A stretch of 64,000 nucleotides of DNA from Synechococcus sp. CC9605 (GTDB taxonomy: Bacteria > Cyanobacteriota > Cyanobacteriia > PCC-6307 > Cyanobiaceae), in NCBI RefSeq assembly GCF_000012625.1, contig NC_007516.1, forward strand, positions 186,001 through 250,000, written 5' to 3'. The notes under the pieces are model-generated. The model had not been told where the DNA came from. It worked only from the letters and a program-made list of their open reading frames with translations, and ran no database searches. This document shows positions 18,085 to 52,875 of the stretch, one piece after another. How positions within the stretch are numbered: position 1 is the first letter of the stretch; every line of letters begins with the position of its first letter. A program made the translations under genes and the position numbers.

Positions 18085-18100
18085 GCCCAATTTACTTTTT
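18077..18100 (+). terminator. Hairpin at the stop codon of the 590-aa gene
   Basis: AAAAGTAA (18077-18084) and TTACTTTT (18092-18099) form a perfect 8-bp inverted repeat around a 7-nt loop, and T residues follow. The left arm contains the TAA stop. The stem has a single G-C pair, so stability is low and termination efficiency is uncertain. Confidence 0.4.
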
Positions 18101-18724
18101 TGTCTATATTGCTTTTATTGATTTATTTAGTTAAATGATCCCAAAATAAACAATATTTAAATAGCTTATAATTTAGCGCGCTTTCAATCGTTGATTTGTA
18201 ATAAATAATTATAAAAACTGGTTTGAACTGATGTTTATTATATTAATTGATTTTGGGATGTGTTTATGCACTTGCGCTTGCTTGTGTGCATATAGATAGC
18301 ATTTTTTGCTTTTTGTGGAGATTAGCCTCTAATCAGCAGATCTCAGCGATTAGAATGTTGCTTTTTATTTCCTTTTTCTGATAATCAGTTCGGTGGGTTT
18401 TGGTTGGTTTTTGCAGTGGTTATCCAGAGAAGCGGATGACTCTCTGCAGTTCAGTTGAGCGGCATCTATTTTGGTACAATAAAACAACGAATCATTCCCA
18501 ATGAACCCCTCTTTCATTATAAATTGCATTCGATCTTGCATGCAGCTACTCCTGTCGTTGCGGGGTAATATTTGGCAACGGATTCTAAGAATCAATTGTT
18601 GTTATTTTAAATACCCTGTTTCTGAAAATAGGTATTTTAGGAGATTTTATTTGTAAAAGCCTATTTATCTATTTCGCAAATTTTTGTACCGCATAAACCA
18701 AACCTTCTCTAGAGTCATTCCTCC
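18085..18724. other. Long AT-rich intergenic region
   Basis: No convincing gene is seen in these 640 nt. A 76-codon minus-strand frame (18365-18595) is cysteine-containing but has no family resemblance or ribosome site. A 7-bp inverted repeat, AAATACC (18609-18615) with GGTATTT (18631-18637), lies about 90 nt before the start of the 1030-aa gene and could be a leader structure or weak terminator. The region may hold the promoter of the 1030-aa gene, but no clear -35/-10 pair was found. Confidence 0.5.
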
Positions 18725-21700
18725 ATGGACAATTCCCTCGCTAAGCAGTTCTCACATTTTCTTTCCTCTGGAGATTACAGTTCAGCCAACCAAATCGTAA
18801 ATCAAGCACGTAATTTAAATTATCCTGTTGGTCTAATCAGTTCATGGGAAAATCTTCTTGCAAAGACAAATCCTGGCTTTGTTCACCCATTAGATGCTGT
18901 TGTAAGTCAAGAATATAATGTTGATAATTTATGTAGCGAGTTGACCCCTGATTTAAGAGCAGTTTTTGAAGAAAAAATTTCTGAGTATAGCAAAAAAAAT
19001 AATATAGATTCGAATTTAATTGACAAAATAGTCGAATTAGTTTTTGACAATTTTCAAATCGATACCGGAAGAATAATTATTCCTGATTTAACGTCCAATG
19101 ATCCAATAGCCAATCTCTTTCATTACTCCGTCAAGGAATACTCAATTGATAATCCTGATGTCCCTGAAGCCGTTGATCGTGGAGTTTGTGTTTCAGTAAT
19201 TGATCATTTTCTAAGATACGGTTATATAGAAATTCTGGAAGGTAGGCGTCATTCATCACTTTCTTTCTCTCATGCTAAGAAAAAATATGACGGGAATCTT
19301 CTTTATATCGTAGATAATTACGATGATTTGGATGAATCTGAAAGGCTAGATCTAAAGTCTCTTCAATTATCTAAGTTGCATGCAGATGTATACAGTATAA
19401 AGGATACTTGTGTGTATACACACAATGGTTCATCCATGACTATAGAGCAATATCTCTTTTATAATATCTCAGATGATCACAATCTCTGCATACTTTTAAA
19501 GGGTAAGACGTTGACCCGATCTGCAGCAAAATGGATTGTTGATATCAAACTAGAAGATCGGACTGCTATTTTCGGCTATTCAGCTAATAACGGAAGATTT
19601 TGTGCTGTTACCGAGTACTCACGACCTAATATGTTGATTTCTGATATTACAAATGGCTGCATTATTGCAAACTCAATTGAAGTCTTGGCCGTTGTAAGTA
19701 GTCTTAAAGATTATCAAACTGCATATGGATATTTTCATGCTTTGGTGCTCGAGTTAGAGGATTTTGGAGTAGAATTTAACTTGAAGAGAGAAATCTTGAG
19801 TGAATCATTTAGCAAAGCTATTGCTAATTTTGATTCCACTCATTCTACTTATTGGTCGCCTTTTTACTACTTGAATGATTATAAATCAAGTTTTTTCCCA
19901 ATTAGGAGAGACTTGGTGAAGACCTGGCAGAAACAGCTAGCTTCTATTGACCAATCTGATAAATCTGAAAGTACTAAAAGTTCACTTCATGTTGATGGTG
20001 AAAATTCAATTGTTAAATTTATACCGAGCCTGAATAATTCTGTTGGCGTTGTAATACCCTTCAAAGATAAGATTCACCTTTTAGAAGATTGTGTAAAATC
20101 TCTCATTCTTAACGAAGAAGAGGTAGCATTGAAAATCTATGCTATTAATAATGGTTCAATTGAACCTAAAACATTTGAGGTATTGGATCGCCTAAAAAAT
20201 CAATATGAAGATCTTTTTGTTTGCATTGATTTTCCTGGTGAGTTTAATTACGCTAAAATTAACAATTACGCCGTAGATTTTGTTGAAGAGGAATATCTAT
20301 TATTTTTAAATAACGATATCGTAATTGAATCTAGTTTCGCGGTCACCACATTGCTTAAAACGCACTGTTTTTATAACGCCGTTATTACTGGTTCAAAATT
20401 GTTATATCCAAGTGGAAAAATTCAGCACAATGGTCTTTCTTCGACCATGGAAAAACATATTGCGATCAACAGTCCATTCTCTCGTCACTATACACATTCA
20501 AACCACGGATTCTCTTTAGACCATTATGTTCATCCATGGGAGCGGACTCATGAATGCTCTGCTGTAACAGCTGCATGTATGATTATGAAGAAGGAAGAAT
20601 TTCTTAGAATAGATGGCTTTGATGAGGATTTCAAAGTTGCTTATAATGATGTTGATCTATGCTTTAGAGCCACAAAAGAATATCATCAGCGACCTATAAT
20701 TTGCTCTACTGAGGTAAAGATATATCATTTAGAATCTGAATCTAGAGGTGATGATAACGATGATGAATCTGGAACCCGGCTTTATCATGAAAGGGTAAAT
20801 TTAGTTTCTCGTCACGAGGATATATTCTCTCGTCCAGATAAATTCACTGGTGTTAGTACAGTCTTCAATAATCTTCAGAAAATTGTAAAAACAAGTTTTG
20901 ATCGTAAGTTTATTGATCATACTTCAAAGCCTAGCTCAGATATAGAGCTTGACGATCTCGTACTTCATCAGGTGCATAACTCGATGAAACAAAGATATGC
21001 CTGTATATTTGTACATTATGATATAGATCCTTTGATTACAGATGATTGTGTTTATCATCTTGAAAAACTAAGTGAATATTGCGATATCTTCTTCGTGTCC
21101 AGCTCAGAATGTTTGGCCAATGCTCCTGAAGAAGTTGAAAAAATCAAGCCTCTTTGTTCCCAAATTCTAATTCGTAAAAATAGTGGATATGATTTTGGAT
21201 GTTGGTCTCATGTAATCAGAAAAAATTATGCTCGTTTGTGTAATTACGAAGGCGTCTTACTTGCTAATGACAGCAATTGGGGCCCTTTGAATGATTTTTC
21301 GGATACTTTCGCCAGGATCAATCGTTATTCTTCAGAAGCAGATTTCATGGGATTAACTTCGTCAATTACTCCGTCGTGGCACTTGCAAAGCTTTTTCATA
21401 TTTTACTCTAGAAAGGTGTTTAGTTCTTCGTTTTTTAAGTTGTATTGGTTTAATATAGGCATATTAGATTCTAAATATGAAATTATAATGAACTACGAGG
21501 TTGGCTGGTCTGCTCGCCTGGTCCGTCTTGGCTTCAAAGGAATTGCTCTATACGGAACCTCTGAGGCTACAAATCCAACTCATGTTAATTGGGAGTCCCT
21601 GCTTCGCTCAAGATATCCTTATCTGAAGAAAGAGCTGATTAGAGATAATCCTTTAAAAATTAATCTAGATAATTTGCCGAATATACTTAGATCGCAAGAC

Positions 21701-21817
21701 TTAAACTGGCAGGCTTCAATTTTGGATTACTTAAAACGTTATAATCGTGAGAACTCTGAGACAGCGAAATTATTTTCATCCTCTAAATCATCAGTGATAA
21801 AATCTGGCATGGACTAA
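18725..21817 (+). CDS. Large glycosyltransferase with GT2 domain and C-terminal RgpF domain
   Basis: This 1030-aa cytoplasmic-type protein has three parts. Residues 1-430 are unrecognised, acidic and AT-rich in codon use. Residues about 440-700 are a GT2 (GT-A fold) domain beginning VGVVIPFKDK. It has NND at 529-531 as the metal-binding DXD equivalent, FDEDF, and the acceptor-site motif ND at 641-642. Residues about 757-970 match the rhamnan-synthesis protein F family (RgpF): CIFVHYDID, RKNSGYDFGCW, GVLLANDSNWGP and the WHLQSFFIFY segment are typical. RgpF-type domains act in rhamnose-rich polysaccharide assembly. Donor specificity is not readable. Base composition indicates acquisition from elsewhere or relaxed selection. 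No signal peptide is present. Confidence 0.85.
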   Translation: MDNSLAKQFSHFLSSGDYSSANQIVNQARNLNYPVGLISSWENLLAKTNPGFVHPLDAVVSQEYNVDNLCSELTPDLRAVFEEKISEYSKKNNIDSNLIDKIVELVFDNFQIDTGRIIIPDLTSNDPIANLFHYSVKEYSIDNPDVPEAVDRGVCVSVIDHFLRYGYIEILEGRRHSSLSFSHAKKKYDGNLLYIVDNYDDLDESERLDLKSLQLSKLHADVYSIKDTCVYTHNGSSMTIEQYLFYNISDDHNLCILLKGKTLTRSAAKWIVDIKLEDRTAIFGYSANNGRFCAVTEYSRPNMLISDITNGCIIANSIEVLAVVSSLKDYQTAYGYFHALVLELEDFGVEFNLKREILSESFSKAIANFDSTHSTYWSPFYYLNDYKSSFFPIRRDLVKTWQKQLASIDQSDKSESTKSSLHVDGENSIVKFIPSLNNSVGVVIPFKDKIHLLEDCVKSLILNEEEVALKIYAINNGSIEPKTFEVLDRLKNQYEDLFVCIDFPGEFNYAKINNYAVDFVEEEYLLFLNNDIVIESSFAVTTLLKTHCFYNAVITGSKLLYPSGKIQHNGLSSTMEKHIAINSPFSRHYTHSNHGFSLDHYVHPWERTHECSAVTAACMIMKKEEFLRIDGFDEDFKVAYNDVDLCFRATKEYHQRPIICSTEVKIYHLESESRGDDNDDESGTRLYHERVNLVSRHEDIFSRPDKFTGVSTVFNNLQKIVKTSFDRKFIDHTSKPSSDIELDDLVLHQVHNSMKQRYACIFVHYDIDPLITDDCVYHLEKLSEYCDIFFVSSSECLANAPEEVEKIKPLCSQILIRKNSGYDFGCWSHVIRKNYARLCNYEGVLLANDSNWGPLNDFSDTFARINRYSSEADFMGLTSSITPSWHLQSFFIFYSRKVFSSSFFKLYWFNIGILDSKYEIIMNYEVGWSARLVRLGFKGIALYGTSEATNPTHVNWESLLRSRYPYLKKELIRDNPLKINLDNLPNILRSQDLNWQASILDYLKRYNRENSETAKLFSSSKSSVIKSGMD

Positions 21818-22382
21818 CTTGGTTATTTCTAGATGATTGAAAATTATTAAATGCTTAATATTTTTCAATTGTCTATCCATCCAAAAATTCTATTATTTGA
21901 ATTTTAGATTAACGTCTTAGATTATTTATAGCATTATGTGGTTTGTGCTGTGTAGGAAATGCGTTAGTGAGTTTTGTTTTAATAAATCATCGATCTATGA
22001 GTAATTAATTTGATTATGATTTGTGTGGGTGTTTTAGTGTTTGGCTTTCGTCATCTCAATAGTCGAAATTTTTTGTGTGTAGGTTCAATCGACACTCTCT
22101 GTCAATCTGCATTATTTAATTTTATTGATAGAGACAATATTTTTGCTTTCGTCTGTTCTTCAGTACTAAGAGGGTCGCGTCACCGGTTTTTGTCAAATCT
22201 TTTTATAGCCATCTTCATCCTTGCCATGATGACGCTCAGTCATGAAGTTGTCTCAAGCTCGATCTCTCAGAATAGGATTCGTCTCAATTAAAAGGACGGT
22301 TTGATCTCAAGCTTACTCTGATGTTACGGCAAATCACAGTGCGGGTTGTTCTGGTATAGTTGGAATGTAGATCTAGTCTGCG
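21818..22382. other. AT-rich gap between the large glycosyltransferase and a coiled-coil gene
   Basis: A 93-codon plus-strand frame at 22010-22291 (TTG start) has one possible membrane segment (FLSNLFIAIFILAMM), but no ribosome site and no family resemblance. I do not call it a gene. A TATAGT at about 22353 lies 30 nt before the ATG at 22383 and may be the -10 of the next gene. Nothing else was recognised. Confidence 0.45.
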
Positions 22383-22682
22383 ATGATGCATCCAATAAAT
22401 TCCTCTCTTGTGAATCAAGACTCCGATGTCAATAACTCTAGTTCTGAAATCAAAAGTCTGGAGAGGCGCATTCGTGAGTTAAAACTGCAAGTGGAATGCC
22501 AGGACGCAAAATACAAGCAATCTCTGGCCGATGGGAAGTTGGCAATGCAGCATATAGAAAAACTCCAAGAAGAAGTCGAGTATTATTTTTTACTTAGTGA
22601 AAAAAAGCAAAAAATTATTGAATCACTCGAAGAGCTCCAGGCTAAATCAACTGAAATTATTTATAATTATGTTCAAAAATAA
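22383..22682 (+). CDS. Small coiled-coil protein
   Basis: This 99-aa hydrophilic protein is predicted from sequence to be mostly alpha-helical. Heptad-like spacing runs from about residue 22 to 90 (IKSLERRIRELKLQ, then EKLQEEVEYYFLLSEKKQK). The LQEEVEYYFLLS stretch recalls LQEELEHYFLLS-type helices that I have seen at the ends of cyanobacterial surface-polysaccharide and TPR proteins; this is recollection, not proof. It could be a cut-down relic or a partner of the glycosyltransferase upstream. A strong inverted repeat follows its stop. Confidence 0.6.
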   Translation: MMHPINSSLVNQDSDVNNSSSEIKSLERRIRELKLQVECQDAKYKQSLADGKLAMQHIEKLQEEVEYYFLLSEKKQKIIESLEELQAKSTEIIYNYVQK

Positions 22683-22707
22683 CATCTACATGTTTCCAGC
22701 GGAAATA

Positions 22708-22743
22708 CCTTGGATATATACTGCCTTAGGTATATATCCAAGG
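22708..22743. terminator. Perfect 14-bp inverted repeat between convergent genes
   Basis: CCTTGGATATATAC (22708-22721) and GTATATATCCAAGG (22730-22743) pair perfectly around an 8-nt loop. The repeat sits between the plus-strand coiled-coil gene (ends 22682) and the minus-strand psbJ (ends 22764), so it can serve both. A T-rich run (GATTTGTTTTGC) follows on the plus strand. It probably ends the psbEFLJ transcript and shields it from the island. Confidence 0.7.
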
Positions 22744-22763
22744 GATTTGTTTTGCTTAATCTA

Positions 22764-22964
22764 TTAAGCGGAGCCAACGCCAGTGTAGGAGCCGTAGAAG
22801 AACAGTCCCACAACAAAAAGAACGGCCATGCCTCCCGCAGTGGCAACCAGCCATAGAGGAAGAACACCTTCTGTCCAGCGGCTTCTCCAGGGCACAGCAG
22901 GTGTGCCATCAGGGTTGCGATCGGGAATTCGACCGTCGGGATACGGGGATTTTTTTCCGCTCAT
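22764..22964 (-). CDS. psbJ: Photosystem II reaction centre protein J
   Basis: PsbJ is a one-span subunit of the PSII core near cytochrome b559, involved in plastoquinone flow and assembly. The 66-aa product has the expected single membrane helix ([20 protein letters not shown]) and ends GSYTGVGSA. The soluble N-terminal extension ([19 protein letters not shown]) is typical of marine picocyanobacteria and longer than the 39-40 aa plastid form. It is the last gene of the psbEFLJ unit, 10 nt after psbL, and is followed by a strong hairpin. Confidence 0.97.
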
Positions 22965-22974
22965 CGAATAGTCC

Positions 22975-23094
22975 TCAGTTGAAGAAGTAGCTGGACATGA
23001 GCACGCCGGTCACGAAAACAAACAGCAGGCCCAGATACAGGCTTGTGCGGTTGAGCTCAACTGGCAGGTTGTTGGGATTGGGATTGCGTTCCAT
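22975..23094 (-). CDS. psbL: Photosystem II reaction centre protein L
   Basis: PsbL is a 39-aa one-helix PSII subunit at the dimer interface that is needed for QA function and stable water splitting. The sequence [20 protein letters not shown] followed by [19 protein letters not shown] is nearly invariant in the family. ATG 23094 gives exactly 39 residues; the longer frame upstream overlaps psbF and is rejected. It lies 7 nt after psbF. Confidence 0.97.
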
Positions 23095-32049: not shown

Positions 32050-33543
32050 TCAACCCGCTTTTGAGGCAGTCTTGCTGATTGCGTCGGGCTTTTCAGCTGG
32101 TGAGTGATTCTTTGAATTGGATTGATTAATTAATTGAGCCTCAAGACGTTGGATGACAATGGTGTTGAACTGCAGTTGAAGCTGATGGTGTTCGAGTTCG
32201 GGATCGAACAAAGTTTCATCGCCTGGCCCAAACTGATTGAGGATCGGTGCGATCAGTTCATTAAATGTTGGGGCGAGATTAATCTTCAAATGCTCGTCTA
32301 TAAAAATCGAGAGCGCTTCCTGAGGGGATTTGTTAGCGCTGATTAGAAGGGCTTTCTGAGCTAAAAGTTGTGAAATGGATTTACGCGCTTTGTCTGCTGT
32401 TTCTTCATGTTCCGAGTGGGCTAGTTTCGTCCAGACATTGATTGCTTCTTTGTCCCTTTTTAGTTCGGCCAGAGCCTCGCCTTTAAGTTGCATTGAGGCG
32501 CCGTCGTCGGGAAAATAGTCTAAGATTGAATTTACTATTCTTAAGCAAGCTTTTGGGTTTGTCTTGATGCAATTGATTGCTACTCCAAAAATCAATGACT
32601 TGACCTCGAGTTCTGTGTTTGCATTAAATTCATCAGGGATGTGTTTAGCTTCTATCCCACTACTGATGGCGAGCAGTTTCGATTGCTTGATTAGATAGAT
32701 TGACTTTTTAGCTTGGTGATGGTTGGCTGATTTTTCCAGATTCGTGATGCTTTCTTTAATCGTGTTTTTAATTGATGGATTTTTAATTTCTTGCTCTAGT
32801 GATGTGAGGATTTCCAGCGCTTTTTTGTGCTGCCCCAGCATGCCCATTGAAAGAGCCTTGTCGTTGATTAGTAGTGGCGATTCAAGCCCAGCTTGTAAGG
32901 TCTGTTCGATGATGTCTGATGAGAGCTTTGGAAGTTCATAGGTGCGAGCTATTTCAGCTTCTCGTCTAATTGCTGGGATGATATTTTCACCAGAATATTC
33001 GTCTTTTGATGAAGGAAGGTGATTTAGTTTCTGCTGGTATTTCTGAGCTATCGCATGGCAAGTTTCTATGAGGAGTTTGACGGAATTAATTTGATTTGCT
33101 TGTAAATGTTTCGACATTTCAAGCGATTTTTTAGCAAGAGCTGCAATTTTTGGCTTGTTTGTTAAATTGCTGAGTCTTTCCCAAATTGCGTGAGCATCGG
33201 TATATTGCCCAATTTGAGAAAGAAGAAATGCTTTTTTGAGTAATATTTTGTTGGTTTTGGCTCCGCTTTTGATTGACGTAGTAATTAATTTAAGTGCTTT
33301 CTTATATTTCTTTTCCGAGATTAATGAGTCAACTTCTTTTAAGGTGAGGCGCTCAATTTCGTCTTTACTAGGGTTGAGTAAGGGTATGGATTTTTTACGT
33401 TCGTATTTACTAAAATTAAGAAATGAGAGCTTTTTGATGAATTTTTTGATAATCATTTCGTCTTCGTCACTATTAAATCGCACAATATTATTACATGACG
33501 TCTTCTTAGAGTCGACAGACGCATTGGTCTGATTTTGTGTCAT
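32050..33543 (-). CDS. TPR-like repeat protein, AT-rich
   Basis: I do not recognise a specific function. The 497-aa hydrophilic protein is mostly helical, with degenerate TPR-like pairs: [18 protein letters not shown] near residue 80, [14 protein letters not shown] near 115, [13 protein letters not shown] near 240 and [18 protein letters not shown] near 360. It has no signal peptide. The DNA is clearly AT-rich compared with chlD and folK on both sides, so it looks like a transferred single gene. ATG 33543 overlaps the folK ATG head-to-head (CATG); an internal ATG at 33456 (MIIKKF) would leave a promoter gap and may be the real start. It ends 8 nt before the chlD start, so it may influence chlD transcription. 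Confidence 0.65.
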
Positions 33544-42918: not shown

Positions 42919-43620
42919 ATGACGAATCGACTCTGGGGCGTTGCCAAGGTTGCCGTGTCCGTTCTCTTCGGGCTCAGTGTTGTTGCGCCATCGCCCCTGA
43001 GGGCAGCAGAGCGCGTTTGCAATGGCACCCTGCTTCAGATCCAGGTGAATGAGCGTGGAACGAGCCATAGCGATCGCTTTCGTTTTTCGCTCGGGATCGA
43101 CGCTGAAAAGGCCAACAAGGATGCTGCGATGACCGCTCTGAACGGCCGTTTGGCTGAGGCGCGTCAGGTCATTCAGCCGCTTGCTCTGGGTCGGCTCACG
43201 ATCCCTGCACCCCGTAGCTACTCCGTTGGGGGAGGCACGTCGGGACCACGATTGGAGCGGGCGAGCACCACCATCACGGGCGAGGTCAGCCGTGACAACT
43301 ACAACGCGCTGATCCAAGCCGTTGGTCGCTTGCCGGGTGTTCGGCTGCGAGGCATGACGTCTTTGGCGACCAGCGACAGCCGTGCCTCATTGGCTGATCA
43401 GTTGCTGAAGAAAGCTCTCGAGACAGGGCAACGTCGTGCGCAGGCCACAGCCCGGGCTCTCGGTCTGCGCAAGGTGGAGCTGTTGCTGATTGACCAGCGT
43501 GGTTCGACCCAACGACCCATGCAGATGGCTGTACGCAGGGAGAACACCAGCTTCAGGCCTGGGGAGGCTCCCAAGCCAAGTCAGAGCCTCGCTCTCAAAC
43601 TGGATTACTGCCTGCGTTGA
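42919..43620 (+). CDS. Secreted SIMPL-domain (DUF541) protein
   Basis: This 233-aa protein has a Sec signal peptide (VAKVAVSVLFGLSVVAPSPLRAAE, cleavage likely after ARA/AAE). A SIMPL-type domain follows, recognisable by the VNERGTS start, ADQLLKKALETGQRRAQATARALGL and the closing KLDYCLR strand. SIMPL proteins are periplasmic and of poorly defined role. Two cysteines near each end (C34 and C231) could form a disulfide. Its 3' end overlaps the convergent BCCT gene by 16 nt. Confidence 0.8.
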   Translation: MTNRLWGVAKVAVSVLFGLSVVAPSPLRAAERVCNGTLLQIQVNERGTSHSDRFRFSLGIDAEKANKDAAMTALNGRLAEARQVIQPLALGRLTIPAPRSYSVGGGTSGPRLERASTTITGEVSRDNYNALIQAVGRLPGVRLRGMTSLATSDSRASLADQLLKKALETGQRRAQATARALGLRKVELLLIDQRGSTQRPMQMAVRRENTSFRPGEAPKPSQSLALKLDYCLR

Positions 43621-45161
43621 TCGGCAGTGCGGTGCCATTCTTTCCAGGCCAGCCGTGGTGCGCTCCACAGGGTGGCCAGCACCAAGGGGGTGACCGGTAC
43701 CGCGGTGATCACGATGAAGGCCTGCAGGGCATCGATGGAGGTGCTGTCCCCCAGCCCTGAGCCGATGCGTAGCAGCACCAAGGTGAGGCTGCCGATCATC
43801 AAGGCCCAGAACAGGCGCAGCAGAGCAGGGGGCTCGTTGCGGCCGCTCACCACCATGGCCGCGGCGTAACTCATCGAGTCGGCGCTGGTGCACATGAACA
43901 GCACCACCAGCACCAGGCCGATCGGAATCAGCAGCCCTGCCAGGGGCAGCTGGCTGAGGATGGTGAGCAGGGCCGCAGCGGCTCCGTTCTGGGCCAGGGC
44001 GTCGCTGATGACGCCCCCGGCCAACTCCAGATGCAGTCCGGTGCCACCTAGCAGGGTGAACCAAAGATTGGTCACGATCGGGCAGAGGATGGCCACCGCC
44101 AGCACCAGTTCACGGATGCTGCGGCCGCGGCTGACGCCGGCGGTGAACAGGCCCATCAATGGGGCATAGCCAAGGAACCAGCCCCAGTAGAACACCGTCC
44201 AGCCGTTCACCCAGTTCGCCGGCACGGCATTGGGGGTGAGGGCCATCTGCGGCAGGTGGATCAGGTAGGTGATGAAGCCGCTGAAGAAGTGCTGAATCAG
44301 CCAGAGGCCCGGCCCAAGCAGCAGCAGGCCCGCCGCCAAGGCCAGGGTGAGCCACACATTGAGTTCCGACAGCCACTTGATGCCCTTTTGAATGCCGCTG
44401 ACGGTGGATGTCGCGAAGACGGCAGTCAGCAGCACCACCACCAGGGATTGCAGTCCGGCACTGTCGCTGAGCCAGGGCAGTTGCCCTGCGGCATTGCTGA
44501 GCTGCAGCGAGAGGAAGCCCAGGGGGCCAACGGTTCCGGCGATCGCGGCCACCACAGACAACCCATCCGCCAGGTGACCGAGCGGACCATCCACCCAGCT
44601 GCGCGGCACGATGTTCACCAGCAGGGTGCGGGGACGCAGGGGCTCACCGCGTCGCTCCAGGATTGAGAAGGTGATCGTGGTGGTCGTGGCCACAAGAGCC
44701 CAGGCGAGGAAGCCCCAGTGCAGAAAACTCACCGCCAGGGCGGGATCCACTGCTGCGGCTGTGCTGCCTTCGACCCCTTCGAACACCGGTGATGGGGTCT
44801 GGAAGTGATAAAGCGGTTCGGCTGCCGACCAGAACACACCACCCCCCGCCAGCAGGGTGCAGATCAGCACCGCGCACCAATCAAAGAATTTCAGACTGGG
44901 TTTGGCTTCCGCCCCCCCAAGCCGAAGTTTTCCGACTGGGCTGATGGCCAGGATCAGCGCGATCAGAAACAGCAGCACCACCATCCACTGCCAGACCCCG
45001 CCAAGGGCATCACTGATCACGGCTTTGCCGTTGTCGGTGAATTGCTTGGCCAGCGCCAGGTCGATGGCCGACACCAGCAGAAAAATCAGTAGGGGAGCAG
45101 CGCCCACCCAGAGGGGGGGCTGCCGCCACCAGGAACGCTGGTTCGTGGGGATGTCAGACAT
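43605..45161 (-). CDS. BCCT-family transporter
   Basis: BCCT transporters move betaine, choline, carnitine or related quaternary amines, usually with sodium. The 518-aa protein has about 12 membrane segments and the family signature FYWGWFLGYAPLMGLFTAGVSRGRSIRE. Compared with BetP from memory, the aromatic box seems altered: the Trp at the position of W374 is Phe and that of W377 is Tyr, and Tyr197 appears to be Val. The substrate may therefore differ from glycine betaine. It is the last gene of a four-gene operon with a sarcosine-oxidase-like enzyme, a dehydrogenase and a SABATH methyltransferase (18 nt after the oxidase), so it may import their substrate. Confidence 0.9.
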   Translation of the reverse strand: MSDIPTNQRSWWRQPPLWVGAAPLLIFLLVSAIDLALAKQFTDNGKAVISDALGGVWQWMVVLLFLIALILAISPVGKLRLGGAEAKPSLKFFDWCAVLICTLLAGGGVFWSAAEPLYHFQTPSPVFEGVEGSTAAAVDPALAVSFLHWGFLAWALVATTTTITFSILERRGEPLRPRTLLVNIVPRSWVDGPLGHLADGLSVVAAIAGTVGPLGFLSLQLSNAAGQLPWLSDSAGLQSLVVVLLTAVFATSTVSGIQKGIKWLSELNVWLTLALAAGLLLLGPGLWLIQHFFSGFITYLIHLPQMALTPNAVPANWVNGWTVFYWGWFLGYAPLMGLFTAGVSRGRSIRELVLAVAILCPIVTNLWFTLLGGTGLHLELAGGVISDALAQNGAAAALLTILSQLPLAGLLIPIGLVLVVLFMCTSADSMSYAAAMVVSGRNEPPALLRLFWALMIGSLTLVLLRIGSGLGDSTSIDALQAFIVITAVPVTPLVLATLWSAPRLAWKEWHRTADQRRQ

Positions 45162-45179
45162 TGGATGACGGGTGAGGGG

Positions 45180-46370
45180 TCAGGCGCGGACGGCGGTGCG
45201 TTGGTGGCTCCAGCAGGAGAGATCGACGGCGGGTTGTTCGCCGCTGGCGAGGCGTGCCAGGGAATCACCGATCAGGGGGGCGAACTTGAAGGCCTGGCCG
45301 GAGCCTCCTGCGAACAGGCTCAGCTTCGGGGTGAGCCGGTCCAGCACGAAGTTCACGTCGCTTGCCATGGAGTAAGGGCTGATCACGGTCTCCACCCGCT
45401 CCTGCACACCGTCCAGTTCGTTGAACAGGAAGGCATCGAGCAACTCCACCAATCGGGCTGGTGGTCCGGTGACCATGGCGTTGGGTTCGGCGACGCGCAG
45501 CTCACTCGGGGCCCAGTCGATGCCCGCTTTGATCCGGGGGCGGCCATCCGCCGTTTGGCTCAGAACAGGAAAGCCGTAGTAGAGGCCACCGTCATCGCCA
45601 CGTTCCTGCTGGAAGCAGAACCACTGGGGGTAGCGATCGGCCAGTGCCGGGTCGACCGTGTAATGGGCCCAGAGCATCGGCCACACCTCCAGTTTTGGTG
45701 CGAGGCCCAGAGGGGCCAGCAACAGTTGGCTCCAGATCCCGCAGGCCACCACCAGCTGTCCGGCGGCAATGTGTTCGCCACTCTCCAGGGTGACGCCTCC
45801 GCCGTCTGGATCGAGGCCTGCCACGGGGCAGTGCTCGATCAGCTGATGGGACGCGTTGCGGGCGGTGTTGATCCAGTGGGCCACGACCCTGTCGCTGCGC
45901 ACGGCACCAGCGGTGGGCTCGAACAGTCCCGTGAAGCCCGCTTTCGGCTTCAGCGGGAAGCGGGCTGCAATCTGGTTGGCATCGAGGGCTTCATAAGGGA
46001 TGCCCTGATTGTCCATGACCCGTCGGGCCCCAGGGATCGACCCCTCGATCGTCTCTTCATCCCAGCTTTCGCCATAGAAGAGCAGGCCGTGGGTCTCCCG
46101 CAATTGCTGTCCGGCGTGGTTTTCTTCCTCGCGCCAGAGGCGGTTGGCCTCCTGGGCGAGACGGCAGAGCACCGGGTCGGAATACATCTCCCGGAACATC
46201 CGGGTTTCGCCATAACTGCTGGCTTTGGCGTGGGCCAGGGTCTGGGCTTCCAGCAGCACCACATCGCGCACGCCGCGGCGGGCCAGGGATGCAGCGCAGC
46301 TGAGGCCGGCCATGCCGCCGCCAACGATCACGACAGCTGCCCGGCTGGGTATGGAGGTGGGTGTGCTCAT
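45180..46370 (-). CDS. Sarcosine-oxidase-like FAD amine oxidase (MSOX/SolA family)
   Basis: This family oxidises N-methyl amino acids, releasing formaldehyde and hydrogen peroxide. The 396-aa protein begins with the FAD motif VVIVGGGMAGLSCAASLARRG and has SSYGETRMFREMY and GGSGQAFKFAPLIG, matching MSOX and SolA. The covalent-flavin cysteine of MSOX (Cys315 in a CMYT context) appears to be Ser or Pro here (ISPYSMASD), so the flavin may be non-covalent. ATG 46370 overlaps the dehydrogenase stop (ATGA). The substrate may be a methylated amine brought in by the BCCT transporter downstream. Confidence 0.88.
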   Translation of the reverse strand: MSTPTSIPSRAAVVIVGGGMAGLSCAASLARRGVRDVVLLEAQTLAHAKASSYGETRMFREMYSDPVLCRLAQEANRLWREEENHAGQQLRETHGLLFYGESWDEETIEGSIPGARRVMDNQGIPYEALDANQIAARFPLKPKAGFTGLFEPTAGAVRSDRVVAHWINTARNASHQLIEHCPVAGLDPDGGGVTLESGEHIAAGQLVVACGIWSQLLLAPLGLAPKLEVWPMLWAHYTVDPALADRYPQWFCFQQERGDDGGLYYGFPVLSQTADGRPRIKAGIDWAPSELRVAEPNAMVTGPPARLVELLDAFLFNELDGVQERVETVISPYSMASDVNFVLDRLTPKLSLFAGGSGQAFKFAPLIGDSLARLASGEQPAVDLSCWSHQRTAVRA

Positions 46371-47422
46371 TCGCTTTCTCCAAAGCTGAGGCCGATGGGC
46401 TCGGTGGAGGGTGTGGCTGCCACTTCATCAAGGGCGGCACCCACCGACAAGCCCTGTTCGCGCCGGTTCAAATAGTCGCTGGCCCGTCGGCGCACCTCAT
46501 CGCGAACGAAGGCATAGACGTCCACGGCACCAGCGTCTTTCCAGGCGTCGGGGGAGAACCGCTCGATTGAATCGGCGATCACAGCTCCGGCATTCACCAG
46601 GGGGTCCGGCAGCACCTTCACACCGCGGCGACGCAGGTCATCCGCCAATTGGGGTTGCTGGAAGGGGGCATTGGCGGCAGGCACCACGGCGGGGGTTTTC
46701 AGCGCCGTGGCCATTTCGGCGTTGATCAATCCCGAGATCGAGCAGGGCAGCAGCAGGTCGTGGTTCAGCTCCCACCAGGCGCAGCTGTCCGGTAGCGGCG
46801 TCGCCCCGGTAAAACTGGCTTTCTCGCGATTCAGATCCACGGTGAACACGGTCCAACCGTGCTCGACGAGATGGCGGGCAACGGTGCCACCAACGGCGCC
46901 GCAGCCGTGCACCAGGGCCCGTCCGGGTTGGGCGTCATTGAGGGCCTTGTCCAGAACGGCCTCCACGGCCCCAAGAGTGCCGTGGGCGGTGGCCGCACTG
47001 GCGTCCACGGGGCTGCCGACCGCCGCCAGCACATGGGGGGTGAGCGCCGTCAGACGCTCCATGTCCTCCAGGCTGGTGTTGAGATCGCAGCCGGTGATCA
47101 TTGCGCCATCAAGCGACTCCAGCAGCTCGGCGGTGACGCTGATCAGTTCATCCTTGACGGCATCGGGTTCAGCAGCCCGGGCCACGATCTTGCCTCCGGC
47201 GAAACCAGTGCCGTAAAGATCGTGCTTGTGGGTCATTAACCCCGCCAGCCGCTGTCCGTCTGCGATGCAGGCCTCATCGCTCGGGTAATTGAGCACACGC
47301 AGGCCTCCGTTGGCGGGGCGCTTGGCATCGGTGTCTTCCGCCACGACGAACACCGAGAGGTGGTCGGAGACGTGTTCCGCCAGCACCGACACGGTCGGCG
47401 CTGTTTTCTTGCCGCTGCTCAT
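46367..47422 (-). CDS. Glu/Leu/Phe/Val-dehydrogenase-family protein
   Basis: This 351-aa protein follows the leucine-dehydrogenase pattern. GGLRVLNYPSDEACIADG and MTHKHDLYGTGFAGGKIV hold both conserved lysines of the substrate site. A Rossmann domain follows, with VHGCGAVGGTVARHLVEHG for NAD and PAANAPFQQPQLADDL. The family deaminates or reductively aminates amino acids; the true substrate is unknown. I chose ATG 47422 (MSSGKKTAPTVS), which overlaps the methyltransferase stop (TGATG). It overlaps the oxidase start as well, so all four genes are translationally linked, a strong hint of one pathway. Confidence 0.85.
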   Translation of the reverse strand: MSSGKKTAPTVSVLAEHVSDHLSVFVVAEDTDAKRPANGGLRVLNYPSDEACIADGQRLAGLMTHKHDLYGTGFAGGKIVARAAEPDAVKDELISVTAELLESLDGAMITGCDLNTSLEDMERLTALTPHVLAAVGSPVDASAATAHGTLGAVEAVLDKALNDAQPGRALVHGCGAVGGTVARHLVEHGWTVFTVDLNREKASFTGATPLPDSCAWWELNHDLLLPCSISGLINAEMATALKTPAVVPAANAPFQQPQLADDLRRRGVKVLPDPLVNAGAVIADSIERFSPDAWKDAGAVDVYAFVRDEVRRRASDYLNRREQGLSVGAALDEVAATPSTEPIGLSFGESE

Positions 47423-48447
47423 CAGGCCACCTTCTCCATCATCTGGTGGTGTTCGACGTAGTCGAGGCTCCATTCGCTGGGGGCTTCGGCAATGCGCTGC
47501 TGCAGCCGCTCGAACACCGTGTCTGCTGCGGTATCACCGGCAGCACTGGCGAAGCTGTGGCGGCTCCAGCTGCGGATCGTCGCCATCAATCCGGCGGCGA
47601 AAGTCGCCGTGTCACCGTTCTCGTTCCAGCGGCGTCGGTAGGGGCACTTCACGTAAACGGTGCGCTCGTCCACCAGCCGTAGGCCGTTGCGGTATGCGGC
47701 GCTGGTCTCGTCCTTCAGTGGAGCCATGAACTCCTCGGGGGACTTGTAGAAGTTCAGAACCGTGCCTTGTTGGTACTGCTCCTGGCTGATCAGGCCTTCC
47801 TCGGCCATGCCCCGCCAGATCTGGTGCAGCTGGTCGTGCACGTTGCGGGTTTCGCCGCCGTTGTGGCCGAGATAGAGGCCTGCTTCATCACGGGAGAGGT
47901 TCACCGTCAGCAGGCGGCCACCCACCTTCAGTTCGCGGCTGCGCAGCTCGAGGATGTGGTTCCAGTCCTTCATCGCCTGGGCGGTGAAGCGCTGAAGCGC
48001 TCCGGCATCACCGGAGGCCAGCACATGGGTGTGGCTGTTCAGGGGGCCGGGGGAGGCGCTCAGCCAGTGCATGGCCGTGGCGGAGAAGCCGAAGCTCACT
48101 GAGTTCGGCGCCACGGAGGGCTCATAGAAGCTGCGGGCACTCACCAGCACCGTTGGCCTTGGATCCCGGGGGATCTGCAGGGCCAGGTTGTTGGCCAGAG
48201 CAGTGTTGTCGTTGCTCGGCAGGTCGTTGCCGATCACCGTCAGGTGCGCCTTTGGCTGGTTGGCATGCAGGCGATCCAGCACCTGGTTCCAGAGCCCAAC
48301 GGCAGTGCCGCCATCGGCAGCTCCGTAATCGATCAGGACATGGCTGTCAGCGACAGCCAGTTCATCTACACAAGTCAAGGCCCAGTCCGAAGCGGCTTCA
48401 ATGCAGAGGAGAGCCCCTTCGGTCTGCGCGCTGTAACCCGTGGTCAT
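47422..48447 (-). CDS. SABATH-type methyltransferase
   Basis: This 341-aa protein resembles the SABATH family of plant carboxyl- and N-methyltransferases (Methyltransf_7). It has the SAM region VLIDYGAADGGTAVGLW, IGNDLPSNDNTAL, the acceptor-side FGFSATAMHWLSASP (compare the SSYSLHWLS motif) and NHILELRSRELKVGGRLLTVN. Bacterial members are known but poorly characterised. It lies first in a four-gene operon with a dehydrogenase, a sarcosine-oxidase-like enzyme and a BCCT transporter. I chose ATG 48447 (MTTGYSAQTEG); a start at 48459 is also possible. Substrate is unknown. Confidence 0.85.
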   Translation of the reverse strand: MTTGYSAQTEGALLCIEAASDWALTCVDELAVADSHVLIDYGAADGGTAVGLWNQVLDRLHANQPKAHLTVIGNDLPSNDNTALANNLALQIPRDPRPTVLVSARSFYEPSVAPNSVSFGFSATAMHWLSASPGPLNSHTHVLASGDAGALQRFTAQAMKDWNHILELRSRELKVGGRLLTVNLSRDEAGLYLGHNGGETRNVHDQLHQIWRGMAEEGLISQEQYQQGTVLNFYKSPEEFMAPLKDETSAAYRNGLRLVDERTVYVKCPYRRRWNENGDTATFAAGLMATIRSWSRHSFASAAGDTAADTVFERLQQRIAEAPSEWSLDYVEHHQMMEKVA

Positions 48448-48528
48448 GGCGATGGCCATGGACCTCGTCAGCGGCAGGCCTCACCGTACAGACCATGGCC
48501 TGGGGGCCGGGGAATCGGTGGTTCCTCT

Positions 48529-49110
48529 TCAGCTTGCTTGGAGCAACTGGCGCAGCCTGGGTTCCAGGAGGGTGAAGGCCTTGCCGCGGTGGCCGTGCTG
48601 CTTTTTCTCCGCCAACGGCATCTCCGCGAAGGTGCGGCCGGTTCCAGCAACTTCGAAGATCGGGTCGTAGCCGAAACCCTGATCTCCACGGGGTGCGGCC
48701 GTGATCAAGCCGTCGCAACGGCCTTCCACCTCCAGCAGGATCGTGCCGTCTGGGGCGGCAACGCACAGCGCGGCGCAGAAATAGGCCTGGCGTTGGTCTG
48801 AGCCGTTGAGGGCCTGAAGCAGCCGGGCAATGCGTTCCGGGTCGGTGGGGGCGTAGCGGGCGGAATGAACCCCCGGAGCTCCATCAAGCGCATCAACGCT
48901 TAGGCCTGAATCGTCGGCCAGGGCCCATTCCCCTGTTGCGGCGGCAACCGCTTGGGCCTTGAGCTGGGCATTGGCGGCAAAGGTGGTGCCCGTCTCCTCC
49001 ACCTCCAAGCCTTCCCGCTGGGGTTGCACGCTGACAGGCAGGGACTGCAGCAGGCCCTGGAATTCCCGAATCTTGCCGGCGTTGCCGCTGGCGATCACAA
49101 GGGTCTTCAT
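48529..49110 (-). CDS. rdgB: Non-canonical purine NTP pyrophosphatase (dITP/XTPase)
   Basis: RdgB removes dITP and XTP so they are not built into DNA. The 193-aa protein has the Ham1 signature: IASGNAGKIREF at the start, ADDSGLSVDALDGAPGVHSARYA, and GFGYDPIFEV. It overlaps the phosphohexomutase gene by ATGA and ends 81 nt before the SABATH operon start. The gap could hold the operon promoter or allow read-through. Confidence 0.95.
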   Translation of the reverse strand: MKTLVIASGNAGKIREFQGLLQSLPVSVQPQREGLEVEETGTTFAANAQLKAQAVAAATGEWALADDSGLSVDALDGAPGVHSARYAPTDPERIARLLQALNGSDQRQAYFCAALCVAAPDGTILLEVEGRCDGLITAAPRGDQGFGYDPIFEVAGTGRTFAEMPLAEKKQHGHRGKAFTLLEPRLRQLLQAS

Positions 49111-50570
49111 GCGGCCTCCGCGAACTGGCGGGCCCAGGCGAGCACCTCGTTCACCCGACTGGCATCAGGTCCTTCGCAGTAAAGCCGTAGCAGCGGTTCC
49201 GTGCCGGAGAAGCGCAGCATCAGCCAGTGGTTCGGACCCATTCTCAGTTTGATCCCGTCGGTGCTGATCACTTCCAGCACCTCGGCGCCGGCGACGCTCG
49301 AGGGCGTGCTCTGGGCCAGCAGCGTCTCGAGACGCCGGCGTGCCTCCATGTCGGCCAGGCGCAGGTCGAGTCGGTCGTAGTGACTGCTGCCACCGTGCTG
49401 TTGCTGGAGTGCATCCAGACGTGCACCCAGGGGTTGCTTCCCTTCCACCAGGGCTTCCAGCACCAGCATCGCCGCGAACAGGGCGTCCCGCTCGGGCAGG
49501 TGCATGCCGAAGCCGACACCACCGGATTCCTCGCCGCCGATCAGCACATCTCCGGCCAGCATCTCTGCGGCGATGTATTTGAAGCCCACCGCGAGTTCCA
49601 GAACCTTCCGCCCCTGGGCTTCCGCCACCAGCCGCATCAGATCCGAGCCACTCACGGTCTTGACAACGGCGCCCGGCAGCTGGCGGGCCCGGGCCAGGTG
49701 ATCGATCAACAGGGGCATCAGCAGCTGGGTGCTGCAGAACCGGCCGGTTTCATCCACGGCGGCGATGCGGTCACCATCGCCATCGAACACCAGTCCCACG
49801 GCAGGGGTTCCGGCGGCGGTTGAGGCTTTCACCGCCGTGATCAACCCCCCGAGGTAGGGCGCCAGGGGTTCCGGCGGATGACCGCCGAACAAGGGATCTC
49901 GTTCGCTGCGGATTTCCTCCACAACGCCAGCGGCTTCAGGGCCGAGCAGCTCCGTCACACACCCGGCAGCTGATCCGTGCATCGGATCGACGATCACCTT
50001 GAGGTTGATGGCCTTGAGGCCCTCAACCAGGGCATTCAGGTCCAGCTTGCGGCGCAGCCCTTCGAGATGCTCGCCGCGTCCATCAAACCGGGGGACCTGC
50101 GCCTTGATCGGGGCCGTGATGCCGCCGGCAGCCAGACGTCGTTCCACGGCGGCCGTGAAGTCTCCCTCGACCGATCCACCAAAGGGGCCTTTTATCTTCA
50201 GCCCCAGCCATTCCGGGGGGTTGTGACTGGCGGTGATCACCAATGCTCCCAGGGCTTTGCGCTCCACCACGGCCCAGCTGCATGCCGGCGTGGGGACAGC
50301 GGTGTCGGTGAGCAGGGGTTCGAGTTCACAACCCCGCACAGCGGCCGCGATGGCTTCCGCCAGTTCTGGAGCCAGAAAGCGGCGGTCGTAACCGATTACC
50401 ACCGTTCGGCTGCTGAGACCCTCGGGAGCGCGATGGGCGAGCTCTTGAGCCGCGGCGGCGGCAACGGGCAACAACCGCTCCACCGTGATGTCGACGCCTG
50501 TGATCCCGCGCCAGCCATCGGTACCGAACTTGATCGGAGCTGGACTCAGAGGGAGGGGAGCCGATGCCAT
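49107..50570 (-). CDS. Phosphoglucomutase/phosphomannomutase family protein
   Basis: The enzyme interconverts hexose-1- and 6-phosphates for sugar-nucleotide and glycogen metabolism. The 487-aa protein has FGTDGWRGITG, the active-site phospho-Ser loop ITASHNPPEWLGLK, the metal loop VFDGDGDRIAAVDE and the sugar-binding loop GGEESGGVG. It could serve glucose, mannose or glucosamine; I cannot choose between them. It is coupled to rdgB and divergent from the RecB-like nuclease gene. Confidence 0.92.
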   Translation of the reverse strand: MASAPLPLSPAPIKFGTDGWRGITGVDITVERLLPVAAAAAQELAHRAPEGLSSRTVVIGYDRRFLAPELAEAIAAAVRGCELEPLLTDTAVPTPACSWAVVERKALGALVITASHNPPEWLGLKIKGPFGGSVEGDFTAAVERRLAAGGITAPIKAQVPRFDGRGEHLEGLRRKLDLNALVEGLKAINLKVIVDPMHGSAAGCVTELLGPEAAGVVEEIRSERDPLFGGHPPEPLAPYLGGLITAVKASTAAGTPAVGLVFDGDGDRIAAVDETGRFCSTQLLMPLLIDHLARARQLPGAVVKTVSGSDLMRLVAEAQGRKVLELAVGFKYIAAEMLAGDVLIGGEESGGVGFGMHLPERDALFAAMLVLEALVEGKQPLGARLDALQQQHGGSSHYDRLDLRLADMEARRRLETLLAQSTPSSVAGAEVLEVISTDGIKLRMGPNHWLMLRFSGTEPLLRLYCEGPDASRVNEVLAWARQFAEAA

Positions 50571-50623
50571 GGCACAGCCTGCACTTCAGTGGATCTAGCA
50601 GCTGGCAGCCGTAGGGTCGGCGG

Positions 50624-52099
50624 ATGGGTGACACCCCGCCTGCCGACAACGCTCTCACCGACCGGTTGCTGCGCAGTTGGCTGCGCTGCCGTCGTAAGGC
50701 CTGGCTCGACCGCCACGGCAATCCAGCCGAGCGGCGCTGGACGGCCCATCGCAATCTGCTGCTGGACGACCAGCAGCGCTGTTTTGTGGCCTTGCTGCCT
50801 CGCAAGCCTGGCCATGGCATCGCCGCCTGTGCTGCCGGTGCCGAGGCTGTGGTGGGTCTGCGCCTCAAGGGCCTTGGTCCATCCGGTGAGCCGTTGGAGG
50901 CACACCCTCCACTGCTGCGGCGGGTCAAGGGCCAGAGCCGCTGGGGTGACTTCGCCTACCAACCGGTGCTCGCCCGTCAGGGCCGCCGCACGACCCGGGA
51001 ACACCAGCTGCCGCTGGCGCTGATGGCTCTGTTGCTTGAGCAGATTCAGCAGGGCGACGTTCCGTCCATGCTGGTGCTCGGCGGTGGTGGTCGGCGCCTG
51101 GAACAGGAGCGGCTGCATCTCTCCAGTGGTCTGCGCCGACAGCTGTCGGAGGGGCTGCGCAAATTGCACGCTGACCTCGAACGCCCTGTTCCTCCTCCGC
51201 TGGCCGCCGACCGGCGCAAGTGTTCACTTTGCAGCTGGCGTGTCGCCTGCAATGCGGTGGCGGTGGAGGAAGGACATCTGAGCGAGGTCAGCGGTATTGG
51301 GGCCAAGCGGCGCGAGATGTTGCTGGAGCTTGGGATTCGCGGCTTGTCCGATCTGGCCGCGGCTGATCCGTTGCAGCTCGCCGAGCGGCTGCAACGTTTT
51401 GGGGATCAGCACGGTGAGGTGGCCGCATCCCTGGTGGCTCAGGCCCGGGCGCAGCGCGATGGACGGGTGGAGCGTTTGAGTGCCTCAGCGGCGCTGCCGG
51501 AACTGCAGGACTGCCCGGGTGTGCTGCTCTACGACATCGAATCCGACCCCGACGCTCGTCACGACTTCCTTCACGGTTTTCTGGTGTTGCCCAGAACCCA
51601 AAGCGGAGACTGGGATCTGGCATCAGTGGCGTATCACCCGATCCTGGCCCTGGCGGAGCATGGTGAAGCCCGTTGCTGGCTGCGGCTGCAGCGGCTGCTG
51701 AATCGCTATCGGGGTTGGCCGATCCTTCACTACGGGGAGACAGAAAGCCTGGCCTTAAGGCGTATGGCTGAGCGGCAGGGTGCTGCAGAGGCTGAGGTGC
51801 TGCAGCTTCGTCAGCGGTTGGTGGATGTGCATGCCCGAGTGCGGCATTACTGGCGCCTGCCCCTGGCCAGCTATGGCCTCAAGGCCGTGGCCGCTTGGCA
51901 GGGGTTCCAATGGAGTCAGGCCGGTGTGGACGGGGCCCGGGCCCTGCTCTGGTGGCGGCAGTGGCAGGGGGAGGGACCCGATCGACGCGGCAACAGGTAC
52001 GGACTGCGCTGGATCTTCGATTACAACCGCGACGACTGCTTGGCCACCTGGGCCGTTGCCGCTTGGTTGCTTGAACAGGATCAGGCGTCGGGATCCTGA
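50624..52099 (+). CDS. TM0106-family RecB-like putative nuclease
   Basis: This 491-aa protein has an N-terminal Cas4/RecB-like nuclease part, with LLRSWLRCRRKAWLD at the start and a CSLCSWRVAC cluster near residues 200-210 that may bind Fe-S. A helix-hairpin-helix-like segment follows (VSGIGAKRREMLLELGI). The C-terminal RNase H-like part begins LLYDIESDPD and ends FDYNRDDCLATWAVAAWLL, with conserved acidic residues. The family (TM0106) has no assigned role. No CRISPR array is near. It overlaps the convergent ygfZ by 19 nt. Confidence 0.83.
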   Translation: MGDTPPADNALTDRLLRSWLRCRRKAWLDRHGNPAERRWTAHRNLLLDDQQRCFVALLPRKPGHGIAACAAGAEAVVGLRLKGLGPSGEPLEAHPPLLRRVKGQSRWGDFAYQPVLARQGRRTTREHQLPLALMALLLEQIQQGDVPSMLVLGGGGRRLEQERLHLSSGLRRQLSEGLRKLHADLERPVPPPLAADRRKCSLCSWRVACNAVAVEEGHLSEVSGIGAKRREMLLELGIRGLSDLAAADPLQLAERLQRFGDQHGEVAASLVAQARAQRDGRVERLSASAALPELQDCPGVLLYDIESDPDARHDFLHGFLVLPRTQSGDWDLASVAYHPILALAEHGEARCWLRLQRLLNRYRGWPILHYGETESLALRRMAERQGAAEAEVLQLRQRLVDVHARVRHYWRLPLASYGLKAVAAWQGFQWSQAGVDGARALLWWRQWQGEGPDRRGNRYGLRWIFDYNRDDCLATWAVAAWLLEQDQASGS

Positions 52100-52875
52100 A
52101 ACGCCTCGGGTTGACGGATCTGGAGCTGTTCTCCGTTGGGACCTTCCAGCGTTGGACTGGCCAGGCACTGGCGGCGCACCAGGGCCAGCCCAAGCCAAGT
52201 GCCGTCGCGTTCGAGAGCACTAGTGATCACCCCTGCTCGCTCTCCCTCCAGCGTGAGCTTTGCCGTTGGCGAGAGTGCACTGCTGCAGCTCCAACGGCGC
52301 AGCTGTTGTTTCACTCCTGCCTGACCGATGAGTTTGGCCATGGTCTCCTGGCCGAGGTAGCAGCCTTTTTCCGTGCTGATCTGAGCGACGAGCCCCAGTT
52401 CCAGGGGATTGGTCTCGCCATTGAGTTCACCGGGGCCCGGGGGGAATCCGCTCTGGAGCCGCCATTGCTCCAGAGCCATCACGGTGGCAGCTTCTCCTGA
52501 TGCCCAGGGCTCCGGCAGTTCCGCTTCCGCATCGCACCAGACTGCGGCAGCGTTGGGCTCAAGCCACTGCAGTCGGCGCAACTCAGCCAGGGGTTGGAGG
52601 CGAACCCGATCGGCTGGAAAAATCACCTGATCAAATCCAGCGTGAACGGCAGAGGCCTCTCCCGCCAGAACGATCACATCGGCTCCCTCTGCATCGAAAC
52701 GAAGTTCCAGCACCGCCCGCAAGCGTCCCGTAGCGGTCAGCCAGCAGGTCTGAAGAAGATCGCCGGATTGGAGTGCGTTGAGGTCAGCACTGGTCTGCCC
52801 CTGAAGAAACTGGCGAGCTCCACTGCCGTTCAAGCGCAGCCAGGGCACCTGGGCGTCCCAAAACAACTTGCTCAT
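52081..52875 (-). CDS. ygfZ: Folate-binding YgfZ-like protein
   Basis: YgfZ proteins (GcvT-related) support repair or assembly of certain Fe-S enzymes and bind folate. The 264-aa protein has the signature [13 protein letters not shown] near residue 170 and the N-terminal [18 protein letters not shown] typical of the family. It overlaps pyrE by ATGA and the RecB-like gene by 19 nt. The Cys of the signature is the conserved redox-active one. Confidence 0.92.

Follow-up and report, generated by a model that had tools for sequence, protein, structure and literature searches.

A four-gene cassette of marine Synechococcus that may make and recover the betaine osmolyte homarine

Results

A four-gene operon on the minus strand

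We analyzed a 64,000-nucleotide stretch of the Synechococcus sp. CC9605 genome (contig NC_007516.1, positions 186,001 to 250,000; hereafter the window, in whose numbering coordinates are given), a genome of one contig and 2,510,659 bases, with attention to an operon of four genes that we propose makes and recaptures homarine. All four open reading frames (ORFs) lie on the minus strand, and in gene order they encode a SABATH-family methyltransferase dependent on S-adenosylmethionine (SAM) (MT; 47422..48459, 345 amino acids, Pfam Methyltransf_7), an ELFV-family amino-acid dehydrogenase (DH; 46367..47422, 351 amino acids from Met18, in an ORF that reaches 47473), a NikD-like flavin adenine dinucleotide (FAD) oxidase of the DAO/MSOX family (OX; 45180..46370, 396 amino acids, Pfam DAO, with NikD, 2oln, as its best solved relative), and a carrier of the BCCT family (BCCT; 43605..45161, 518 amino acids, Pfam BCCT). 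An earlier note on this DNA, made from the sequence alone, had described a four-gene operon here; the operon is real and correctly placed, with the families recovered by Pfam. The 4-nt overlap of DH and OX and the 18-nt gap between OX and BCCT that it reported stand as well, and its 1-nt overlap of MT and DH is found if DH starts at Met18 (47422); with the alternative start, an ATG at 47473, DH would overlap MT by 52 nt. In the alignment, Met18 is present in all 19 operon rows, and the 47473 start position is occupied by Leu in one row (L077); DH residue numbers below are counted from the 47473 ATG. The MT start is possibly at 48447, the Met at both this position and 48459 being invariant in 19 rows. 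No sigma-70-like promoter was found in a scan of 43400-50700.

The four genes are inherited together

Each of the four proteins was used as a query against 151 genomes of the family, sampled evenly from a larger group, and a match was called strong when it was near full length with at least 70% identity. MT, DH, OX, and BCCT had strong matches in an identical set of 19 of the 151 genomes. Left out of this count were MT matches in G102 (25% identity) and G122 (a fragment), a DH fragment in G076, the 60% identical DH of G030, which is treated separately below, and OX matches at an E value of 1.7e-8 or weaker (74 of the 151 genomes match OX at 1e-3); BCCT had no further match in the 151 genomes except two extra fragments in G025. 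The 19 include G112, where a frameshift interrupts the OX match, and the BCCT match of G141 crosses one TAG. The G112 locus (L078:6966-8154) lies on one contig, with the frameshift near OX codon 55 and nearly full-length matches to MT, DH, and BCCT; the gene may have been lost naturally, or the frameshift may be an error of sequencing.

The same four genes form a contiguous block in the same order in 18 of 18 further regions, which were fetched because they held matches, and all four stand in order at 29 of 32 loci from named records, three of these (L117, L129, and L130) with an end gene partly cut; the remaining 3 are interrupted by contig ends. Strains WH7803 (L121) and RCC307 are among the named carriers, and some named records are the same genomes as those in the family sample, so that the counts overlap. 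The conservation of all four genes together that the earlier note had proposed to look for is thus found, and its reading of the four genes as one unit is supported. dN/dS (the ratio of nonsynonymous to synonymous substitution rates) was 0.055-0.172 in 20 comparisons with five other copies, dS being near saturation in distant pairs; these values and the recurring gene order speak against a chance arrangement.

In the organism's own genus, a strong DH match was found in 28 of 34 genomes, one of them (G175) with an internal stop and not counting DH fragments in G164 and G170; of the 6 genomes that lack such a match, two (G155 and G174) reach a completeness of 98% or more. Of 291 genomes sampled across the phylum, each at least 90% complete, 13 have MT, and these 13 fall within two genera of the same family. 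Beyond the phylum sample, a single contig scan with two strict peptide patterns for MT, which could miss distant clusters, returned 32 loci; Synechococcus stands in the titles of 31, and the remaining locus is titled "Cyanobacteria bacterium TMED177." The cassette is absent from the small-genome relatives in the samples, presumably Prochlorococcus. OX, the only query used on IMG/VR viral contigs, gave 20 candidate stretches by its profile, none of which encodes a relative.

The active site of OX resembles that of NikD

OX belongs to Pfam DAO (2e-43). When its profile was compared with solved structures, NikD (2oln) was best at 138.6 bits (E 2.1e-39), followed by 129 bits for 7exs (a sarcosine oxidase), 110.9 bits for 1zov (MSOX), and 90.9 bits for N-methyltryptophan oxidase; the closeness to NikD is thus one of sequence profiles. 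Five residues, Arg60, Glu109, Tyr265, Asp285, and Lys362, are invariant in 18 of 18 aligned copies (the frameshifted L078 was left out) and correspond to NikD Arg53, Glu101, Tyr258, Asp276, and Lys358, numbered by counting along the printed alignment, which we take to be active-site residues of NikD.

As controls, we used 15 DAO proteins of other cyanobacterial genomes (L206-L213 and L222-L228), excluding L214-L221, which are operon copies, and L229-L235, which are weaker matches. None of the 15 has Glu at column 109 (L228 has Asp) or Asp at column 285 (L212 has Glu). Column 362 holds Lys in 9 and Met in 6, which indicates that some controls are distant members of the family. The best NCBIfam match of OX is N-methyl-L-tryptophan oxidase, at 184 bits and below the 257-bit cut-off. 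We rejected a sarcosine or N-methyltryptophan oxidase despite this name, on the active-site columns: in all 18 rows OX lacks both the flavin Cys of MSOX/SolA (Ser here) and the active-site His (Asp285 here), residues that occur in 8 (Cys) and 5 (His) of the 15 controls. We propose that OX may be an aromatizing piperideine-2-carboxylate oxidase with picolinate as its product.

DH carries an unusual pair of pocket residues

DH is an ELFV protein (Pfam ELFV_dehydrog 2e-15, only 57.9 bits; ELFV_dehydrog_N 2e-6); the other ELFV match in the host genome scores 284 bits to ELFV_dehydrog. Its nearest relatives by sequence are LeuDH and TrpDH, and its predicted structure (mean predicted local distance difference test score, pLDDT, 80.1) is closest to PheDH 1c1d (Z 35.0), with LeuDH and GluDH entries at Z of about 26-31. 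The catalytic K83, K95, and D130 and the conserved N268 are kept in 20 of 20 rows.

Asn55 and Asp301 are likewise invariant in all 20 rows. We assume that these two columns determine the fit of the substrate side chain (Leu40 and Val294 in LeuDH; Lys89 and Ser380 in GluDH) and that in GluDH they bind the substrate carboxylate. Neither the Leu..Val pair of LeuDH nor the Lys..Ser pair of GluDH occurs in any of the 20 rows. Among 37 ELFV control sequences, 29 of them GDH-type (a thirty-eighth locus, L202, gave no match and was dropped), the Asn55 column holds Lys in 29, Leu in 3, Met in 2, Ile in 2, and a gap in 1, and the Asp301 column holds Ser in 29, Val in 6, Ala in 2, and Asp in none; Lys and Ser stand together in 29 of 29 GDH-type controls, and the other 8 have Val or Ala at the second column. 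In the alignment to 8gxd, a two-residue gap falls after Ile299; 7vid and 6acf align without a gap, and the DH model has a helix across 296-306. An amide and an acid at these columns would suit a substrate that bears an amine at its far end, lysine for example, and we propose, with support from the acidic pocket residue, that DH is a deaminating L-lysine 2-dehydrogenase.

A larger-genome relative, G030, has a lone DH homologue (L091:8049-9173) that is 60% identical and shares the Asn/Asp pair of the pocket. No MT, OX, or BCCT match was found within the 17.5 kb fetched around it; this enzyme may make piperideine-2-carboxylate for another use.

MT and BCCT

MT matches Pfam Methyltransf_7 at 6.2e-24 (85.2 bits; curated cut-off 29.8), and 18 orthologues aligned with it are 79-98% identical. 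Among solved structures FAMT comes closest, followed by SAMT-type and further SABATH enzymes; MT also matches 8uzd, whose chain is named IpCS3 and which we take to be a caffeine synthase, an N-methyltransferase. MT has His131-Trp132, as in 8wwq, where FAMT has Gln-Trp and SAMT has Met-Trp. Its structure model is of low confidence (pLDDT 55.5). We propose MT as a putative picolinate N-methyltransferase giving homarine.

BCCT is a clear member of its family (Pfam BCCT 8.8e-129; 430.5 bits against a cut-off of 27), with the trimethylamine transporter 8zw8, 8ybq, DddT, a choline carrier, and BetP as its nearest solved relatives. It lacks the full W..W..Y of transmembrane helix (TM) 4 and WWxxW of TM8 seen in 8zw8, with Y replaced by V, one W by F, and one W by Y; the three substitutions are identical in 20 of 20 sequences. 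As these positions presumably form the aromatic box of BCCT carriers, the differences would be in keeping with transport of something other than a trimethylammonium compound. The proposed role is uptake or recapture of homarine or another betaine.

The operon behaves as a cassette

Upstream of MT, 69 nt away and on the same strand, lies a HAM1/rdgB-like gene (48529..49110, minus strand; Pfam Ham1p_like), the usual upstream neighbor of the operon and the border of the cassette. Given this spacing, the transcript may exceed four genes; the HAM1 product is probably outside the pathway. About 3.6 kb upstream of MT, an ORF at 52081-52875 appears by eye to be YgfZ-like (folate binding, GcvT type) and is probably unrelated.

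In 16 of the 18 fetched regions HAM1 immediately precedes the operon, and SIMPL or RPE65 lies on the other side, at up to about 1.5 kb; around the operons of G025 and G092 no HAM1, SIMPL, or RPE65 flank was found. Eight genomes were examined for HAM1, and in 6 of them the site is empty, HAM1 being directly beside SIMPL or RPE65; among the 6 are G155, a member of the same genus, and G092, whose operon is located elsewhere. In G064 about 1 kb separates HAM1 from SIMPL/RPE65, and G174 has only a distant HAM1 match (43%). The four genes thus act as a single cassette, whose site stands empty in relatives. Between G141 and the window, the operon genes are 83-92% identical and RPE65, HAM1, and PGM are 75-80% identical; that the operon genes are more alike than their flanks suggests possible transfer as a unit.

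SIMPL (DUF541; 42919-43620), beside the cassette, is far more variable than its neighbors (37-86% identity between strains) and was not found in some of the loci examined. Elsewhere in the window, an island of low GC content (34-51%, compared with about 63%) spans 15000-23000; its ORFs, judged by eye, resemble sugar epimerases and glycosyltransferases, and it looks like an imported surface-polysaccharide region. A gene for a lysine-rich, repeat-like protein (32050-33543) lies in a stretch of low GC between chlD-like and folK-like ORFs, also judged by eye.

Discussion

A proposed route from lysine to homarine

We propose, with a probability of about 0.62, that homarine (N-methylpicolinate), a betaine osmolyte, is synthesized from L-lysine by the enzymes of this operon and taken back up from outside by its carrier. 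From the gene families, co-inheritance, cassette behavior, and active-site residues observed above, we infer every substrate, product, and direction as follows. DH would oxidatively deaminate L-lysine at C2 to 6-amino-2-oxohexanoate, which would close spontaneously to the ring compound piperideine-2-carboxylate (P2C); OX, acting like NikD, would remove four electrons from P2C in two rounds to give picolinate; MT would transfer the methyl group of SAM to the ring nitrogen, yielding homarine; and BCCT would import or recapture homarine or a similar betaine. By analogy with nikkomycin biosynthesis, a route with a dehydrogenase in place of the aminotransferase and an added N-methyltransferase would lead to homarine. 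The fuller claim, of a homarine cluster made up of an ELFV lysine 2-dehydrogenase, an aromatizing P2C oxidase that lacks the usual covalent flavin link, a SABATH enzyme of bacteria that N-methylates picolinate, and a BCCT carrier adapted to homarine, the whole being a transferable cassette of marine Synechococcus, we hold only slightly more firmly than its opposite.

Passages of one study report homarine in axenic Synechococcus WH8102 and WH7803, both strains tested (PMC8269262), and corrected values reach 18 mM in WH8102 and are about 0.2 mM in WH7803 (PMC10134881), a carrier of the operon. The part of PMC2874817 available to us places the WH8102 BetT gene, SYNW0229, within a predicted operon, SYNW0229-0233, and takes its neighbors as possible transporter subunits. 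Judged by gene number, an assignment of SYNW0229-0233 as BCCT, OX, DH, MT, and HAM1, in that order, would fit this published table, which suggests that WH8102 carries the operon. The biosynthetic and degradation pathways of homarine are called uncharacterized in the available text of PMC8269262, and in our search of open-licence literature, which mostly excludes subscription journals and preprints, we found neither genes for homarine biosynthesis nor this gene set described as a pathway. The earlier note, which knew of no described pathway with exactly these four enzymes, agrees with this, and the genes for homarine biosynthesis appear to be undescribed so far.

Several points weigh against the proposed route. 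G155, of the same genus and 99% complete, has no DH match, and two copies look damaged, the DH of G175 by an internal stop and the OX of G112 by its frameshift. The best NCBIfam match of DH is the tryptophan dehydrogenase ScyB (102 bits against a cut-off of 600), and we know of no ELFV enzyme that acts on C2 of lysine. OX lacks a flavin-linking Cys, with Val or Ser there by alignment, and has Gln at the column of NikD Trp355, both in 18 of 18 rows; we take NikD to bind FAD covalently through Cys321 and to place Trp355 over the flavin, and because these features differ we file OX as NikD-like and not as a NikD. Homarine also occurs in diatoms and in Emiliania huxleyi. The homarine content of WH7803 is about 100 times below that of WH8102 (PMC8269262, in the text available; PMC10134881), and the available part of PMC8269262 gives quinolinate as the origin of homarine, citing work on shrimp.

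Alternative readings

The earlier note had read the operon as serving catabolism: a methylated amine or betaine would be taken up and broken down, in the manner of MSOX, for nitrogen or formaldehyde. Its link to a betaine-type osmolyte is likely to be right, and BCCT, DAO, and ELFV proteins are generally known in amine catabolism; the name of the best NCBIfam match of OX, below its cut-off, points the same way. Breakdown is nevertheless improbable, because OX is NikD-like at two active-site positions and nearer to NikD by profile, with neither the His at the Asp285 column nor the flavin Cys. A SAM-using methyltransferase consumes methyl groups and points to the making of a methylated product, and the four-gene block has no demethylase or formaldehyde-handling gene.

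If lysine is converted to picolinate as proposed, MT could instead methylate the carboxylate, giving methyl picolinate as a volatile or signal, with BCCT carrying another solute. N- and O-methylation cannot be told apart from the sequence of MT, and the prevalence of carboxyl methyltransferases among its solved SABATH relatives (FAMT and the salicylate, geniposidic acid, and loganic acid enzymes) weighs against homarine and in favor of the ester, as does the His-Trp pair shared with 8wwq, though FAMT and SAMT differ there. We nonetheless regard the ester as a poor candidate: it leaves the strict co-inheritance with a betaine-type carrier unexplained, the match to IpCS3 is presumably one to an N-methyltransferase, and what has been reported in Synechococcus is homarine, not methyl picolinate (PMC8269262, in the text available; PMC10134881). 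The same report counts against a different product of the same enzyme logic, such as an ornithine-derived pyrroline or pyrrole carboxylate or an unsaturated piperideine or pipecolate betaine. The acidic pocket residue of DH suits a distal amine in general, so that ornithine is possible, and OX might perform a single two-electron step; the NikD-type residues of OX point to P2C, and we consider such a product unlikely, if a shade less so than the ester.

Significance and comparison with known systems

Homarine, a betaine of the surface ocean, reportedly accounts for up to 0.25% of particulate carbon on a North Pacific transect, by corrected values (PMC10134881), and was absent from KEGG in one study (PMC8269247, in the part available). 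Genes for its synthesis would let ocean surveys trace homarine producers and join metabolite with transcript data, and would explain a trait that may differ among Synechococcus lineages. If the homarine proposal is true, the ELFV family would gain a lysine-type member and bacterial SABATH enzymes an osmolyte role.

The closest parallel is the nikkomycin branch (the L-lysine 2-aminotransferase NikC/SanL with NikD), in which an aminotransferase converts lysine to P2C and an MSOX-family enzyme converts P2C to picolinic acid (PMC4021061, in the text available). The proposed route shares these intermediates and an MSOX-family oxidase, OX keeping the five NikD residues; it differs in having a dehydrogenase where nikkomycin uses an aminotransferase, in the Ser or Val and the Gln of OX at the flavin-linking Cys and Trp355, and in a product thought to be methylated, where that of nikkomycin is joined to coenzyme A. 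For MT, the parallel is with the coffee trigonelline synthases, SABATH enzymes that N-methylate nicotinate (PMC8877179, in the text available); pyridine-carboxylate N-methylation is proposed for MT also, although MT is bacterial and its proposed substrate is picolinate. DH shares the fold and the catalytic Lys/Lys/Asp/Asn of the ELFV dehydrogenases (LeuDH, PheDH, TrpDH/ScyB, and GluDH) and is set apart by the Asn/Asp pair at the positions for side-chain specificity and by its weak Pfam score. The glycine betaine system of WH8102 concerns a different betaine and an ATP-binding cassette carrier, where the operon has BCCT, and its methyltransferases, GsmT and SdmT, are presumably unrelated to MT. 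The two systems are alike in arrangement: in WH8102, osmolyte methyltransferases are numbered beside an osmolyte carrier, GsmT/SdmT with ProVWX (SYNW1913-1917; PMC2874817, in the part available), just as MT and BCCT are joined in the operon described here.

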